Positions 56,976 to 61,934 of a DNA stretch of 64,000 bases are shown here, one piece after another. The position numbers and the translations under genes were made by a program. Each line of letters starts with the position of its first letter. Position 1 is the stretch's first letter. The DNA is taken from assembly GCA_947467345.1 (NCBI GenBank), contig CANIHD010000003.1, positions 1 to 64,000 on the forward strand, read 5' to 3'. The notes below the pieces were generated by a model that searched no databases, was not told the origin of the DNA, and was given only the letters and a program-made list of their open reading frames with translations. Source of the DNA: Alphaproteobacteria bacterium (GTDB taxonomy: Bacteria; Pseudomonadota; Alphaproteobacteria; Micropepsales; Micropepsaceae).

Positions 56976-57863
56976 ATGTCGAATTTCTCGTTTGCTTTTC
57001 ATCCGCTCAAATGCGGCATGGTTGTGGCGCAAATCCTTGCTACCAGCGCGTTGATCCTGACGGCAACGTGCCCTGCCAACGCCGCCGAGGTCGTGCCTGA
57101 TTTCTACGCCAGCGGCTTTGGCTGGCAGCACGCGCCGAATGCATCAGGGAAAAACTTCGATCCGCCGCCGCCAGGAGCTCCAGGCGCGGCCGGCCCCATC
57201 GGCGCCCATCCGAACCATCCGCATGTCGGCAACGGCACGCCTGGTCAGGCCGCGACCCCGCGCATTGGTAACGATGGCAGCCCGCTCCTTCTGCCGTGGG
57301 CGGCGGAAAATATGAAGAAGACGCGGCTAGCCATCGAAGCCGGCGGCGTGCCGTTCGATCCCGCGGCGCGATGCTGGCCGGGCGGCGTTCCTGCCGTTGT
57401 CAGCTTTGCCAATCAGCCCATGGAAATTCTGCAGACACCGGATCTCGTGGTTCTGCTTTATGAGCGTGGCCAGGTTGCGCGCCGCATCTATATGAACCGC
57501 CCGCATGCGCAAAATCTCACGCCAACCTGGTATGGCGAATCCGTTGGTCATTATGAAAACGGCGACACGCTTGTGATCGACACGATCGGCATGACGGACA
57601 AGAGCTTTGTCGATGTGTTCAATGTTCCACACACCAAAGCGCTGCATATCATTGAGCGTTACAAAATCATCGATGGCGGTAACAAGATCGAGCTGGTCAT
57701 CACGGTCGATGATCCGCAGACCTTCACGCAAACCTGGTCGGTGATGAAGCTGATGGAGCCCTCGCGGGAACGCGTCGGCGAGGTTCTCTGCCAAGTCGGA
57801 AATGACGATGTCTACAATCAGGGTTTGCGGCCGGTTCCGACCGCCGCGACACCGGATTACTGA
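56976..57863 (+). CDS. Exported protein of unknown function, family A copy 1
   Basis: The 295-residue protein has a signal peptide (VVAQILATSALILTATCPANAA, cleavage near residue 37) and a Pro/Gly-rich N-terminal part. Its conserved C-terminal domain shows RCWPGGVPAVVSF, PMEILQTPDLVVLLYERG, RRIYMNRPH, ESVGHYENGDTLVIDTIGM, VDVFNVPHTKALHIIERYKI and ITVDDPQTFTQTWS. The same order of motifs occurs in the protein at 58372-59187, so they are paralogues. CCGGAG precedes the ATG. No catalytic family is recognised. It stands 68 bp before a DUF6152 gene, probably in one operon. Confidence 0.82.
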   Translation: MSNFSFAFHPLKCGMVVAQILATSALILTATCPANAAEVVPDFYASGFGWQHAPNASGKNFDPPPPGAPGAAGPIGAHPNHPHVGNGTPGQAATPRIGNDGSPLLLPWAAENMKKTRLAIEAGGVPFDPAARCWPGGVPAVVSFANQPMEILQTPDLVVLLYERGQVARRIYMNRPHAQNLTPTWYGESVGHYENGDTLVIDTIGMTDKSFVDVFNVPHTKALHIIERYKIIDGGNKIELVITVDDPQTFTQTWSVMKLMEPSRERVGEVLCQVGNDDVYNQGLRPVPTAATPDY

Positions 57864-57931
57864 ACGACGAGCGCATTTTCGCATCGGGCGCGCGGCGAAA
57901 ACAGAAGATGCGGATCATCGGAGGGCAATCC

Positions 57932-58300
57932 ATGAGCGTTAAGGCAATCTGGTTGGCGGGAATAGCCGCGACAGCTTTCGCAGTTCCTGCCCTTGCACAT
58001 CATTCCTTCGCTATGTTCGACGCTACCAAGACGATTGAAATGGCGGGCGTCGTGAAAGAGTTTCAGTGGACCAATCCTCATGCGTGGTTGATCGTTACGA
58101 TCGCCGATGAGCAGGGAAAGGCGACCGACTGGCAGCTCGAAATGGGCGGCCCCGGCGGCTTGGCGCGGCAGGGCTGGCGCCCCAAGACGGTCGTTCCCGG
58201 TGACAAGGTGACCGTCAAACATCACCCGCTCAAAGACGGTTCGGCGGGCGGCCAATTTGTATCGGTGGTGCTGCCGAACGGCACATCACTCGGCGAATAG
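57932..58300 (+). CDS. DUF6152-family exported protein, copy 1
   Basis: A 122-residue small exported protein. The signal peptide ends ...VPALA at residue 22, so the mature protein would start His23-His24-Ser25. Other conserved points are NPHAW (His50), WQLEMGGPG, QGWRPKTVVPGD and HHPLKDG (His97, His98). It aligns without gaps to the second copy at 59973-60344 over residues 23-100. GGAGGG precedes the ATG. The function is undescribed; an exposed N-terminal His with other fixed His suggests metal binding (inference). It lies between the two family A genes. Confidence 0.85.
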   Translation: MSVKAIWLAGIAATAFAVPALAHHSFAMFDATKTIEMAGVVKEFQWTNPHAWLIVTIADEQGKATDWQLEMGGPGGLARQGWRPKTVVPGDKVTVKHHPLKDGSAGGQFVSVVLPNGTSLGE

Positions 58301-58371
58301 ACACAGCAAGAGATTTGGCACTGCGCGGCGGAAAGCGTCGCGCAGGCGCCGATTGGTAGGGGAATAGATTT

Positions 58372-59187
58372 ATGCAGTTTTGGTCCATCGAACGGCGAAA
58401 CTTTGTCGCCGTCGCGTTCACGGCAGCTTTGGGATTTGCATTGACCATCCCAGCGGTTGCAACGGCTCGCGAAGCGGCGCCGACAGCAGCGCGCACACCG
58501 GGTGGGCCTTTCTACACGCCGACTGCCAACCAGAACATTTCCGGCATTTGGTGGGTACGTCGTTACGACGCAAAGATTGCCCCCGTGGGCGGCGGCGAAT
58601 TGCCGTTCACACCGGCGGGCTTGCAAAAATACCGCGAGAATATGGCGGGGCTAAAAGCCGGCACACTAAAGGACGAAGCGCGGCGTATTTGCGTGCCCGA
58701 TGGTTTTCCGCGTTTGGCCGGCAATCCCTACCCGTTCCAGATCATCCAAACGCCGGGCCAAGTGACGATCACTTATGAGGTCAATCACATCATTCGTCCG
58801 CTTTATCTGAACGCAGCGCCGCCAAGCGCCGACGACGTGGAATTGTTTCCGCGTTACATCGGCTACTCCACGGCGAAGTGGGAAGGTGATGTGCTCGTCG
58901 TCGAAAGTGTCGGCTTCCACCAGGACACATTCATCGATGCCACCGGCGTGCCGCACAGCGAGCAATTGAAGACGGTCGAGCGCATTCGCAAAGTCGACAA
59001 CAAAACACTGGAAACCGAAATTACAGTGACCGATCCCGCGATGTTTACGCGGCCCTGGCAATCGCGCTTCGTCTACGATCTTCATCCGGAAGAGCGCCTG
59101 CGCGATTACAATTGTGGCGAAAGTTTCCGCGACATCTCGAACGTACCAGGCGTCGCCGAAGCGCGGCGGGCACGGACGCAGCCTTAA
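58372..59187 (+). CDS. Exported protein of unknown function, family A copy 2
   Basis: The 271-residue protein has an N-terminal basic stretch and hydrophobic signal (FVAVAFTAALGFALTIPAVATA). It shares motifs with the protein at 56976-57863: RRICVPDGFPRLAGNPYPFQ, IIQTPGQVTITYEVNH, AKWEGDVLVVESVGF, TFIDATGVPHSEQLKTVERI and ITVTDPAMFTRPW. Unlike copy 1 it has the added YDLHPEERLRDYNCGESF near its end. Two cysteines (in RRICVP and YNCGE) could pair in the periplasm. It follows the DUF6152 gene by 71 bp. Confidence 0.82.
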   Translation: MQFWSIERRNFVAVAFTAALGFALTIPAVATAREAAPTAARTPGGPFYTPTANQNISGIWWVRRYDAKIAPVGGGELPFTPAGLQKYRENMAGLKAGTLKDEARRICVPDGFPRLAGNPYPFQIIQTPGQVTITYEVNHIIRPLYLNAAPPSADDVELFPRYIGYSTAKWEGDVLVVESVGFHQDTFIDATGVPHSEQLKTVERIRKVDNKTLETEITVTDPAMFTRPWQSRFVYDLHPEERLRDYNCGESFRDISNVPGVAEARRARTQP

Positions 59188-59207
59188 ACCGCGGAAATCT
59201 TCGCGCG

Positions 59208-59792
59208 CTATCGCTGACGCGGGCGTCCATCCGGGAAGGAATGGTTGTCTTCGCGATAGCGCAGCACCATGCCGGCATTGTCGATGAGTTCGAGCGACGC
59301 CTGATAGGCGGCCGGTGGCGCTGCGTTTCCGGGCACTTCGGCTTCCATCACATAGAGTCTGTTGTCGAGGAAATGAATCTCGGCAAAGAGACGTCTTCCG
59401 TTCGGCAGCGTCACCTGCAATTGGTGCCCCGGCACCACCTGTATCTCCGCATAGGCGTCGTAGGTGACGGTGCGTTTCTGCCGGATCTGTGTGGCCAGAT
59501 GCTGCATAGCGCCGCGCTTCTCCAAGCCGATGGCTGCCGGGCGCATCGTGGTTTTCGAGAAATCGATTACGGTCATGGTGTAGCCCGATAGCCCACGCTC
59601 GGCCGTATAGCGGTGACCCGGCATGATCGCCGCGCACTCCGTTTCGTGCATCATATTTTCGATATTGGGCTGCCCGGGAAAATTCACCCGGAAGCGATCT
59701 TGCGCGCTGACATATTCGATCCAGCCCTGCGCCGACGCCGCACTCGCCGCGAAAACCAGTGCAAGCACTGCAATGATTGGCCCCACGCGCAT
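59208..59792 (-). CDS. Exported protein of unknown function, family H copy 1
   Basis: The 194-residue protein has a signal peptide (IIAVLALVFAASAASA, then QGWIEYVS). The mature part shares with the protein at 60646-61227: W-I-x-Y-V, RFRVNFPGQP, PGHRYTAERGLSGYTMTVID, VVPGHQLQVTLPNGRRLF, NRLYVMEAEVPGN and ASLELIDN. One cysteine. GGAGGGG precedes the ATG. No known family is recognised. It converges on family A copy 2 with 20 bp between and lies downstream of the second DUF6152 gene. Confidence 0.78.
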   Translation of the reverse strand: MRVGPIIAVLALVFAASAASAQGWIEYVSAQDRFRVNFPGQPNIENMMHETECAAIMPGHRYTAERGLSGYTMTVIDFSKTTMRPAAIGLEKRGAMQHLATQIRQKRTVTYDAYAEIQVVPGHQLQVTLPNGRRLFAEIHFLDNRLYVMEAEVPGNAAPPAAYQASLELIDNAGMVLRYREDNHSFPDGRPRQR

Positions 59793-59918
59793 CCACCCCT
59801 CCCTGATGTTTATGATCCGGGAAGAGTGCCACGACGGTGATCTCAGGCAAACGGTGCACGGCTTTTTCTTAGCTCTCTCATCTTGTCAGAGAGAGCGGCA
59901 ATCGTGACGTGACGCGCA

Positions 59919-59953
59919 TAAAAAAACGGGCCGCGAATCTTGCGGCCCGTTTT
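59919..59953 (-). terminator. Rho-independent terminator of the second DUF6152 gene
   Basis: ACGGGCCGC (59926-59934) pairs perfectly with GCGGCCCGT (59942-59950) around a 7-nt loop. On the reverse strand it is followed by a run of seven T, so it should end the gene at 59973-60344 and keep it apart from the gene at 59208. Confidence 0.9.
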
Positions 59954-59972
59954 CACATTCAAGACATCGACC

Positions 59973-60344
59973 TCAGTCGAATTCCTTCGGCGCTGAACCC
60001 GGAGTTGTAAGGAAGCCGAGGAGGCATCCGTCCGAGTTGTCCTTCAAATGGTGGCAGCGAACCTGAATCGTATCGCCGACTTTCACGCTTTCCTTCGTCC
60101 AGCCGCCGCGGATCAACGCGCCAATGCTGCCGCCTTCAAGCGCCCAGGTTTTCGCCACACCGGCAGCGTCCGGAACTTCCATGTAGACCCACACATGCGG
60201 GTTCATCCAATGGACTTCCGTCACCTTACCGCTGAGGTTCATCCACTCGTTGGTTTTATAATTCGCGTGGCTGTGATGTGCCCAAGCCGCGCCCGACATG
60301 GCGAGCGCTGCAACTGCCGCCAAGCAAATGGACCTCTTAAACAT
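59973..60344 (-). CDS. DUF6152-family exported protein, copy 2
   Basis: The 123-residue protein has a signal peptide ending ...GAAWA at residue 22, so the mature protein would begin His23-His24-Ser25-His26. Conserved with copy 1 in a gapless alignment: NPHVW (His50), W-x-L-E-G-G, RGGW, GD at 90-91, and His98 followed by LKD at 100-102. Position 97 is Cys here and His in copy 1. A second cysteine occurs in DGCLLGF. GAGGAACAC precedes the ATG, and a strong terminator follows the gene, so it is a single-gene unit. Confidence 0.85.
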   Translation of the reverse strand: MFKRSICLAAVAALAMSGAAWAHHSHANYKTNEWMNLSGKVTEVHWMNPHVWVYMEVPDAAGVAKTWALEGGSIGALIRGGWTKESVKVGDTIQVRCHHLKDNSDGCLLGFLTTPGSAPKEFD

Positions 60345-60645: not shown

Positions 60646-61227
60646 ATGCGTTTTCGATTCTTGACCTTGGCCGCAGCACTGGCGACAGCGACCGTTCTAG
60701 CGGGTGCCGCCTACGCCCAGGATTGGATCAATTATGTCGATAAGGATGTTCGCCTAGCGGTCAATCTGCCGACCCAGCCCACGGCTGAAGACATTACCTT
60801 CGAATCCGAATACGGCGCCATGCTGCCGGCGCGTCGTTTCACAGCAGCGCGCGGCGACAGCCGCTATGTCGTGACCGTCATCGACTACACGGACTCAAAT
60901 ACGCCCATCACCGATTGGCGCGGCTCCATGCAATGGGCTCTCTGGCCCTTCCGGCAAATGGGCAAGCTGACCTTTGACGGGTATCAGGAAATTGATCGCA
61001 TCCCGGGCCATCAGATCGCCGTGCAGCTTCCGAATGGCCGCCGCCTCTATGTAGGCACCAATATGTATGACAAGCGGCTCTACGTGCTTGAAGCCGAGCT
61101 TCCCGGCAATTTGCCGCCGCCCGAACATTTTCGCGCCTCACTTCAAGTGCTGAATGAGACGGGTAATCCGATCCGTCTCGATGACGACGGCAACCCGGCG
61201 CAGCAGCGGCCTATCGAGCAGAGATAA
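60646..61227 (+). CDS. Exported protein of unknown function, family H copy 2
   Basis: The 193-residue protein has a signal peptide (LTLAAALATATVLAGAAYA, then QDWINYVD). It is a paralogue of 59208-59792: RLAVNLPTQP, LPARRFTAARGDSRYVVTVID, DRIPGHQIAVQLPNGRRLYV, KRLYVLEAELPGNLPPP and ASLQVLNETG. It has no cysteine after the signal. GGGAGG lies five bases before the ATG. A cytochrome c gene follows 101 bp later on the same strand. Confidence 0.78.
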   Translation: MRFRFLTLAAALATATVLAGAAYAQDWINYVDKDVRLAVNLPTQPTAEDITFESEYGAMLPARRFTAARGDSRYVVTVIDYTDSNTPITDWRGSMQWALWPFRQMGKLTFDGYQEIDRIPGHQIAVQLPNGRRLYVGTNMYDKRLYVLEAELPGNLPPPEHFRASLQVLNETGNPIRLDDDGNPAQQRPIEQR

Positions 61228-61328: not shown

Positions 61329-61934
61329 ATGCGAAACACATTTCGGAATTATATGCGGCCGGCTTTCGCGGCTGTCGCTCTTTTCATGTCTGCCTGCAGC
61401 GCGCCGCAACAAGAGGCGCAAGCACGGGCCGCACCCGCGGCACCAACACAGGAAGAACGCATAGCGCGCGGCGCCTATATCACCAGCTATGCCGGCTGCA
61501 ATGATTGCCACACGCCAGGCTATTTCCTGGGCCAGCCCAATAACGAACTGCATTTGGCCGGCAGCGATGTCGGGTTCTTCATGCCAGGGCTCGGCTATGT
61601 CTATGGGCCCAATCTGACGCCGGACCCTGAGACGGGTCTCGGCAATTGGAGCGAGGACCAGATCCTCACCGCGATCCGCACCGGCGTCCGCCCGGACGGA
61701 CGCAAGCTCGCCCCTATCATGCCATGGCAAGCCTTTGCCGGGCTGACCGACGAGGATGTCCGTTCCATCGCCGTCTATCTGAAAAGCCTAGCGCCGATTG
61801 CGCGTCCATCTTTGCCGATGACCCCTGCCGATCAAATGCCGCCAGGCGCCTATATGAGCATCGTGTTTCCGCCGGGCGTAACGCCTCCCGGACCGCCACC
61901 TGGTGCGGCACCTGCGGCACCGCCGGCGCCATAA
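61329..61934 (+). CDS. Lipoprotein c-type cytochrome
   Basis: The 201-residue protein has a lipobox (FMSACSAP, lipid-bearing Cys at 23), a heme site CNDCH in YAGCNDCHTPGYFLGQ, and a likely axial methionine in LAPIMPWQAFAGLTDED. LTPDPETGLGNWSEDQILTAIRTGVRPDG is typical of the cytochromes that accompany alcohol, aldehyde or sorbosone-type dehydrogenases. The C-terminal 30 residues are Pro/Ala/Gly-rich. One heme only. No dehydrogenase is adjacent; it probably passes electrons from a periplasmic enzyme, partner unknown. Confidence 0.9.
   Translation: MRNTFRNYMRPAFAAVALFMSACSAPQQEAQARAAPAAPTQEERIARGAYITSYAGCNDCHTPGYFLGQPNNELHLAGSDVGFFMPGLGYVYGPNLTPDPETGLGNWSEDQILTAIRTGVRPDGRKLAPIMPWQAFAGLTDEDVRSIAVYLKSLAPIARPSLPMTPADQMPPGAYMSIVFPPGVTPPGPPPGAAPAAPPAP

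Follow-up and report, generated by a model that had tools for sequence, protein, structure and literature searches.

We propose that the proteins of the DUF6152 family are secreted OB proteins which bind a metal, probably copper, through an N-terminal histidine, and which work with a membrane partner; this is the best explanation that we can give for the observations as a whole, and we give it an even chance of being right. According to this proposal, DUF6152 would be exported to the periplasm, where signal peptidase would expose an N-terminal His1-His2 pair. A single transition-metal ion, in all likelihood Cu(II), would then be bound by the amino group and the imidazole of His1, by the invariant His28 and possibly by His2; this site, of the histidine-brace type, would lie at one end of the OB barrel. 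The protein would capture or carry the metal, with a four-helix inner-membrane protein of the DUF6644 type, which has one invariant membrane histidine, as its partner; in one branch of the family (the HHS branch) a further partner would be W, a secreted FABP-like small-ligand-binding protein.

Two DUF6152 genes lie in the window, that is the whole stretch of 64,000 nucleotides which was analysed. Both are genuine Pfam DUF6152 (PF19649) members, scoring far higher than the 27 bits of the curated cut-off. Their features are the following:

57932..58300, + strand: DUF6152 copy A, 122 aa (PF19649, E 8.8e-36, 122.4 bits)
57932..57997, + strand: predicted signal peptide of copy A, 22 aa, ending in PALA, with A-x-A directly before HH as family-wide
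57998..58003, + strand: His1-His2 codons of mature copy A (precursor residues 23-24), invariant in 162 relatives
58073..58081, + strand: Asn-Pro-His of copy A, its His50 being mature His28; Pro and His invariant in 162 relatives
59973..60344, - strand: DUF6152 copy B, 123 aa (PF19649, E 6.5e-29, 100.3 bits)
60279..60344, - strand: predicted signal peptide of copy B, 22 aa, ending in AAWA, with A-x-A directly before HH as family-wide
60273..60278, - strand: His1-His2 codons of mature copy B, invariant in 162 relatives
60195..60203, - strand: Asn-Pro-His of copy B, its His50 being mature His28; Pro and His invariant in 162 relatives

Window residues 23, 24, 49 and 50 are thus mature His1, His2, Pro27 and His28. 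For copy A, an alternative in-frame ATG upstream, at 57908, would give 8 extra residues. The initial annotation had noticed in both copies an AxA site ending at residue 22 and followed by His-His-Ser, and a gapless alignment of residues 23-100; we found both again. The predicted junctions are PALA/HHS in copy A and AAWA/HHS in copy B, and 30 of the 78 aligned residues (38%) are identical, among them H23, H24, N48-P49-H50, W52, W67, E70, G81-W82, G90-D91 and H98. In Pfam the two copies match PF19649 only, and none of LPMO (AA10), CopC and CusF/SilF; a search of NCBIfam gave no match, and no relative of DUF6152 was found when solved structures were searched by sequence, with the single protein and with a profile. 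The suggestion that the family is new must be withdrawn, as DUF6152 is already catalogued in Pfam. Its function was rightly called undescribed: the PF19649 entry is without functional description, and we found no mention of DUF6152 in the PMC literature (5.39 million papers).

DUF6152 occurs in Pseudomonadota and Acidobacteriota, and was found in 42 of the 398 sampled genomes of the phylum. The window's genome has 19 copies, and genomes of its genus have 5-22 each; in sister genera within the same taxonomic family DUF6152 is absent or gives a single weak match. Close relatives of the window's copies are found in Alphaproteobacteria MAGs (GTDB contig scan, best 80 of 425). Both window copies belong to the HHS branch, HHGW being a diverged branch. 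A single lineage-specific burst of the 19 copies is not supported, since they are not gathered in one clade and need 12 label changes on the tree, which is poorly resolved.

The sequences compared came from the window's genome (19 copies), from samples of the phylum and of relatives, and from the same GTDB contig scan (best 80 of 425 relatives). HH stands at the same place in all 162 distinct DUF6152 precursors, and again in 162/162 when the re-check was made using a profile stripped of its N-terminus. So that the sampling would not favour HH, 40 weaker or partial matches were added, of which 38 were readable; in all 38, among which are HHGW relatives with some 20% identity, HH follows a stretch resembling a signal peptide. 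Judged from these sequences, the placement of HH is far beyond chance. An alignment of 135 sequences, reaching down to about 20% identity, has H1, H2, P27 and H28 as its only invariant positions; there is no invariant Met and no invariant Trp, and the conserved aromatics are W24, W30, W45 and W60 (mature numbering). Such a small fixed set is typical of metal sites. One of the 38 weak matches (L181, at G401:C31) has NPY for NPH, possibly as a degenerate or re-purposed copy. The histidines had been presented as fixed, which holds in the 162 sequences for His1, His2 and His28 and fails for His98: no more than 57% of the family have His at this position, where 32 Asn and 13 Tyr were also counted, and it is therefore not a family-wide ligand, the variability ruling it out.

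The main support for a cleavage exactly before HH is that the position of HH is constant family-wide, and we regard a mature start at HH as very probable from the sequences. In 96% of the family, the site before HH agrees with the permitted -3/-1 pattern. A small home-made signal-peptidase weight matrix, made of 17 reference sites, which are too few to decide on the cleavage of copy A by themselves, and not modelling the hydrophobic core, places its best site at HH in 102 of the 162 precursors, and disagrees for copy A, where it prefers a site 5 residues earlier. Cleavage might then take place elsewhere, either two residues earlier, giving an ATCUN-like x-x-His start, or five residues off, in which case His1 would not be the true N-terminus. 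A lenient -3/-1 rule indeed also fits offsets -2 (82%) and +5 (98%), and seven paralogues, all of the HHSG or HHSY type, carry an unusual cleavage site with Val at -1. However, strict AxA is found at HH in 81% of the family and never exceeds 17% at other offsets, the offset -2 usually places Pro at -2, which signal peptidase avoids, and conservation starts exactly at His1. For the family, we find such a displaced cleavage very unlikely. The Val(-1) paralogues themselves (L064, L073, L082, L087, L119, L124 and L127, with [FYW]V/HHSG or HHSY, adjoining a canonical copy) may be cut elsewhere; a cut two residues earlier would give the mature start x-V-His, an ATCUN-like motif.

We folded mature copy A with AlphaFold2, using the alignment of 135 relatives. 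The model has a mean pLDDT of 93.9 and only its first ten-residue block is lower (79); the four residues at pLDDT 50-70 are probably residues 1-4. The strands 13-23, 30-36 and 42-48, the helix 52-57 and the strands 70-78 and 84-91 follow each other in OB-fold order, and the structure matches in the PDB are OB proteins (Rim1/SSB and the anticodon-binding domain of LysRS). DUF6152 is hence predicted to be a small, secreted, single-domain OB-fold protein. Judged from the hairpin register, His28 would be placed at the turn between strands 1 and 2, near that end of strand 3 at which the nearly invariant Glu48 is found. A viral fold library gave generic OB matches only, with CcmE among the weak ones. 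CcmE is an OB-fold haem chaperone; the histidines of DUF6152 could be kept for binding haem, which CcmE also does, or else for docking to DUF6644 or W, with no transition-metal site at all; strict conservation alone does not separate a ligand from a contact residue. Contact surfaces, however, normally keep more residues, and a free N-terminal His-His together with one invariant internal His and little else fixed is the pattern of a metal site. We therefore hold a role without metal to be improbable, and think that DUF6152 quite probably carries a metal site.

The histidine-brace build proposed by the initial annotation stood in its sequence part: there is a His at residue 1 after the predicted removal of the signal peptide, and a conserved internal His28. 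It failed for the fold, the predicted OB barrel being unlike CopC and LPMOs. Any likeness of DUF6152 to histidine-brace proteins can therefore lie in its way of working alone, as it is no relative of the CopC and LPMO families; it is a member neither of these nor of the CusF family. LPMOs, CopC and PmoB have in common with DUF6152 an N-terminal His exposed by signal peptidase (predicted for DUF6152) and a further invariant His. They differ in that there is no sequence or Pfam relation, that LPMOs, as classical histidine-brace proteins, have an immunoglobulin-like fold (PMC12537917), and that copper is putative in DUF6152. CusF and SilF, which are periplasmic Cu(I)/Ag(I) chaperones, share with DUF6152 as we propose it that they are small secreted OB-fold proteins with the metal at one end of the barrel; no other OB-fold protein is said to have metal binding for its sole function (PMC10656224). 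Their ligands, though, are an internal His, two Met and a Trp, whereas DUF6152 would use its N-terminus.

A parallel in kind is the "signal strapping" class. DUF4198, DUF6702 and the anglerases are secreted proteins which were picked solely by their conserved N-terminal His and shown to bind Ni or Cu there (PMC12537917). DUF6152 fits this class, being likewise secreted and of a family with no known function for which metal binding is predicted, but is not among the families of that paper. It also differs from them: the N-terminal His is present in 79% of DUF4198 and 65% of DUF6702 (PMC12537917) as against 162/162 in DUF6152, which has two adjacent His, and the Ang and DUF6702 domains are beta-sandwiches, whereas DUF6152 is predicted to be an OB-fold.

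The same comparison bears on the identity of the metal. DUF4198 and DUF6702, to which the N-terminal His led in the same way, have a preference for Ni (PMC12537917), so that the site of DUF6152 might serve for the uptake or storage of Ni, Co or Zn and not for copper. Among the 318 neighbour proteins of our three sets no copper family stood out (among the 25 commonest families listed per set), which agrees with such a reading; yet no nickel, cobalt or zinc family did so either, and by the Irving-Williams order Cu(II) is favoured at an N-terminal His chelate, where it is the default metal (PMC10952591). A metal other than copper seems rather doubtful to us. For copper as the native metal, the sequences leave us evenly divided.

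For the proposed membrane partner in the HHGW branch, we considered 20 regions with HHGW loci and left out six where our crude gene caller had missed DUF6152; in 14/14 of the others DUF6152 is immediately followed, on its own strand, by a DUF6644-like gene, the gap being 3-20 bp in 12 and 104-116 bp in two (3-116 bp overall). Its product is a four-helix membrane protein whose invariant residues include one membrane His as well as Asp, Lys, Trp and Arg. Near the HHS-type copies of other genomes, DUF6644 is again the commonest Pfam family (10/146 neighbours), and in L030 a single ORF joins DUF6152, W and DUF6644 in a triple fusion, the DUF6644 part of which is below its Pfam cut-off. This arrangement is like that of CopC-CopD, where an N-terminal-His periplasmic protein adjoins or is fused to a small helical membrane protein, and like that of the anglerases (Ang-1/Ang-2), which are fused to membrane permeases (PMC12537917). 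Aligned with CopD, the DUF6644 profile gives no convincing match (hhalign E 0.067, with a probability of 0.8%), and a relationship between the two is not established. Because DUF6152 has a small membrane protein as its fixed companion, much as CopC has CopD and the anglerases have their permeases, we favour a capture and hand-over of the metal, with a presumed direction of transfer; by this analogy, metal transfer is somewhat more probable than catalysis.

In the window, the two copies are surrounded by secreted proteins of two families without a Pfam model, W and V:

56976..57863, + strand: secreted W-family protein with a conserved Cys pair and no Pfam or NCBIfam match, directly upstream of copy A; its homologues are beside or fused to DUF6152
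58372..59187, + strand: W-family protein, predicted FABP-like barrel, directly downstream of copy A (AlphaFold2 pLDDT 92.3)
59208..59792, - strand: secreted V-family protein, no Pfam family, between copies A and B; homologues next to DUF6152 in 23 loci
60646..61227, + strand: second V-family protein, divergent from copy B and 45% identical to the first

Within 1 kb of the 19 DUF6152 copies of the window's genome, W is found near 8 against 0.5 expected; V is near 5 of the 19 against 0.24 expected, the P values of both proximities ignoring the shared ancestry of duplicated clusters. W is present in 16 of 17 HHS-type genomes and in none of 9 HHGW-only genomes (Fisher P 3e-6, uncorrected for kinship). 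DUF6152 and W are fused in five ORFs (two in L074, the others in L067, L028 and L030), and both match within one 391-aa frame at G427:C263; these natural fusions suggest a stable pair. The W family, which has the motif GHWEGDTLVVDT and a conserved Cys pair, has about 30 copies in the window's genome; in three congeners, with genomes of 2.7-3.9 Mb, it shows a striking expansion to 103-123 matches each. The W match with the highest score in the window's genome (C8:38201-39019) contains an in-frame TAA within its open frame. The V family consists of small secreted proteins, with about 16 copies in the window's genome. A cytochrome c-type protein (Pfam Cytochrom_C; 61329-61934, + strand) adjoins the second V gene; it could be a redox partner, or stand there by chance.

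An LPMO-like oxidative role has to be kept in mind because the HHS branch has expanded along with W, TonB receptors and catabolic genes. DUF6152 would then be a copper enzyme, an oxidase or peroxygenase acting in catabolic clusters on hydrophobic small molecules presented by W. The large sets of paralogues, as in LPMO-rich genomes, would agree with this, and so would the lipid-binding-like barrel of W with its more than 100 matches per genome in several congeners, the conserved aromatics, and the neighbours found elsewhere, which include TonB receptors (8-9/146) and glyoxalase/dioxygenase, GST, CoA-transferase and amidohydrolase families. Nevertheless, the HHGW branch is without W but always with the membrane partner, no known electron donor is linked, and the fold matches of the W model at 58372-59187 (Foldseek), although all to FABP/CRABP, are weak (E 3e-4, rmsd ~7 A). 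Such an enzyme is, in our judgement, unlikely.

Some points count against a metal-binding protein working with a membrane partner, the explanation which we prefer. Up to about 20 paralogues per genome exceed the need of a simple chaperone. No copper-homeostasis family is prominent among the 318 neighbours, and to this must be added the Val(-1) paralogues, the NPY of L181 and the low hhalign probability of DUF6644 against CopD. In its most specific form, a histidine-brace-type copper site on an OB-fold, made of the N-terminal His-His and the His of NPH, in a two-part system with DUF6644 and, in one branch, with an expanded W, the proposal is tentative and falls a little short of an even chance.

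Finally, a metal site of this type on an OB-fold seems undescribed so far, as we found no paper in the PMC literature combining "histidine brace" and "OB-fold". If our proposal is true, the OB-fold would join the short list of scaffolds for N-terminal-histidine metal sites, and two secreted families without a Pfam model, W and V, would become linked to DUF6152. The family would also be a directly testable case of the 2025 proposal that secreted N-terminal-His proteins are metalloproteins. This would give a first function to DUF6152 and probably also to DUF6644.
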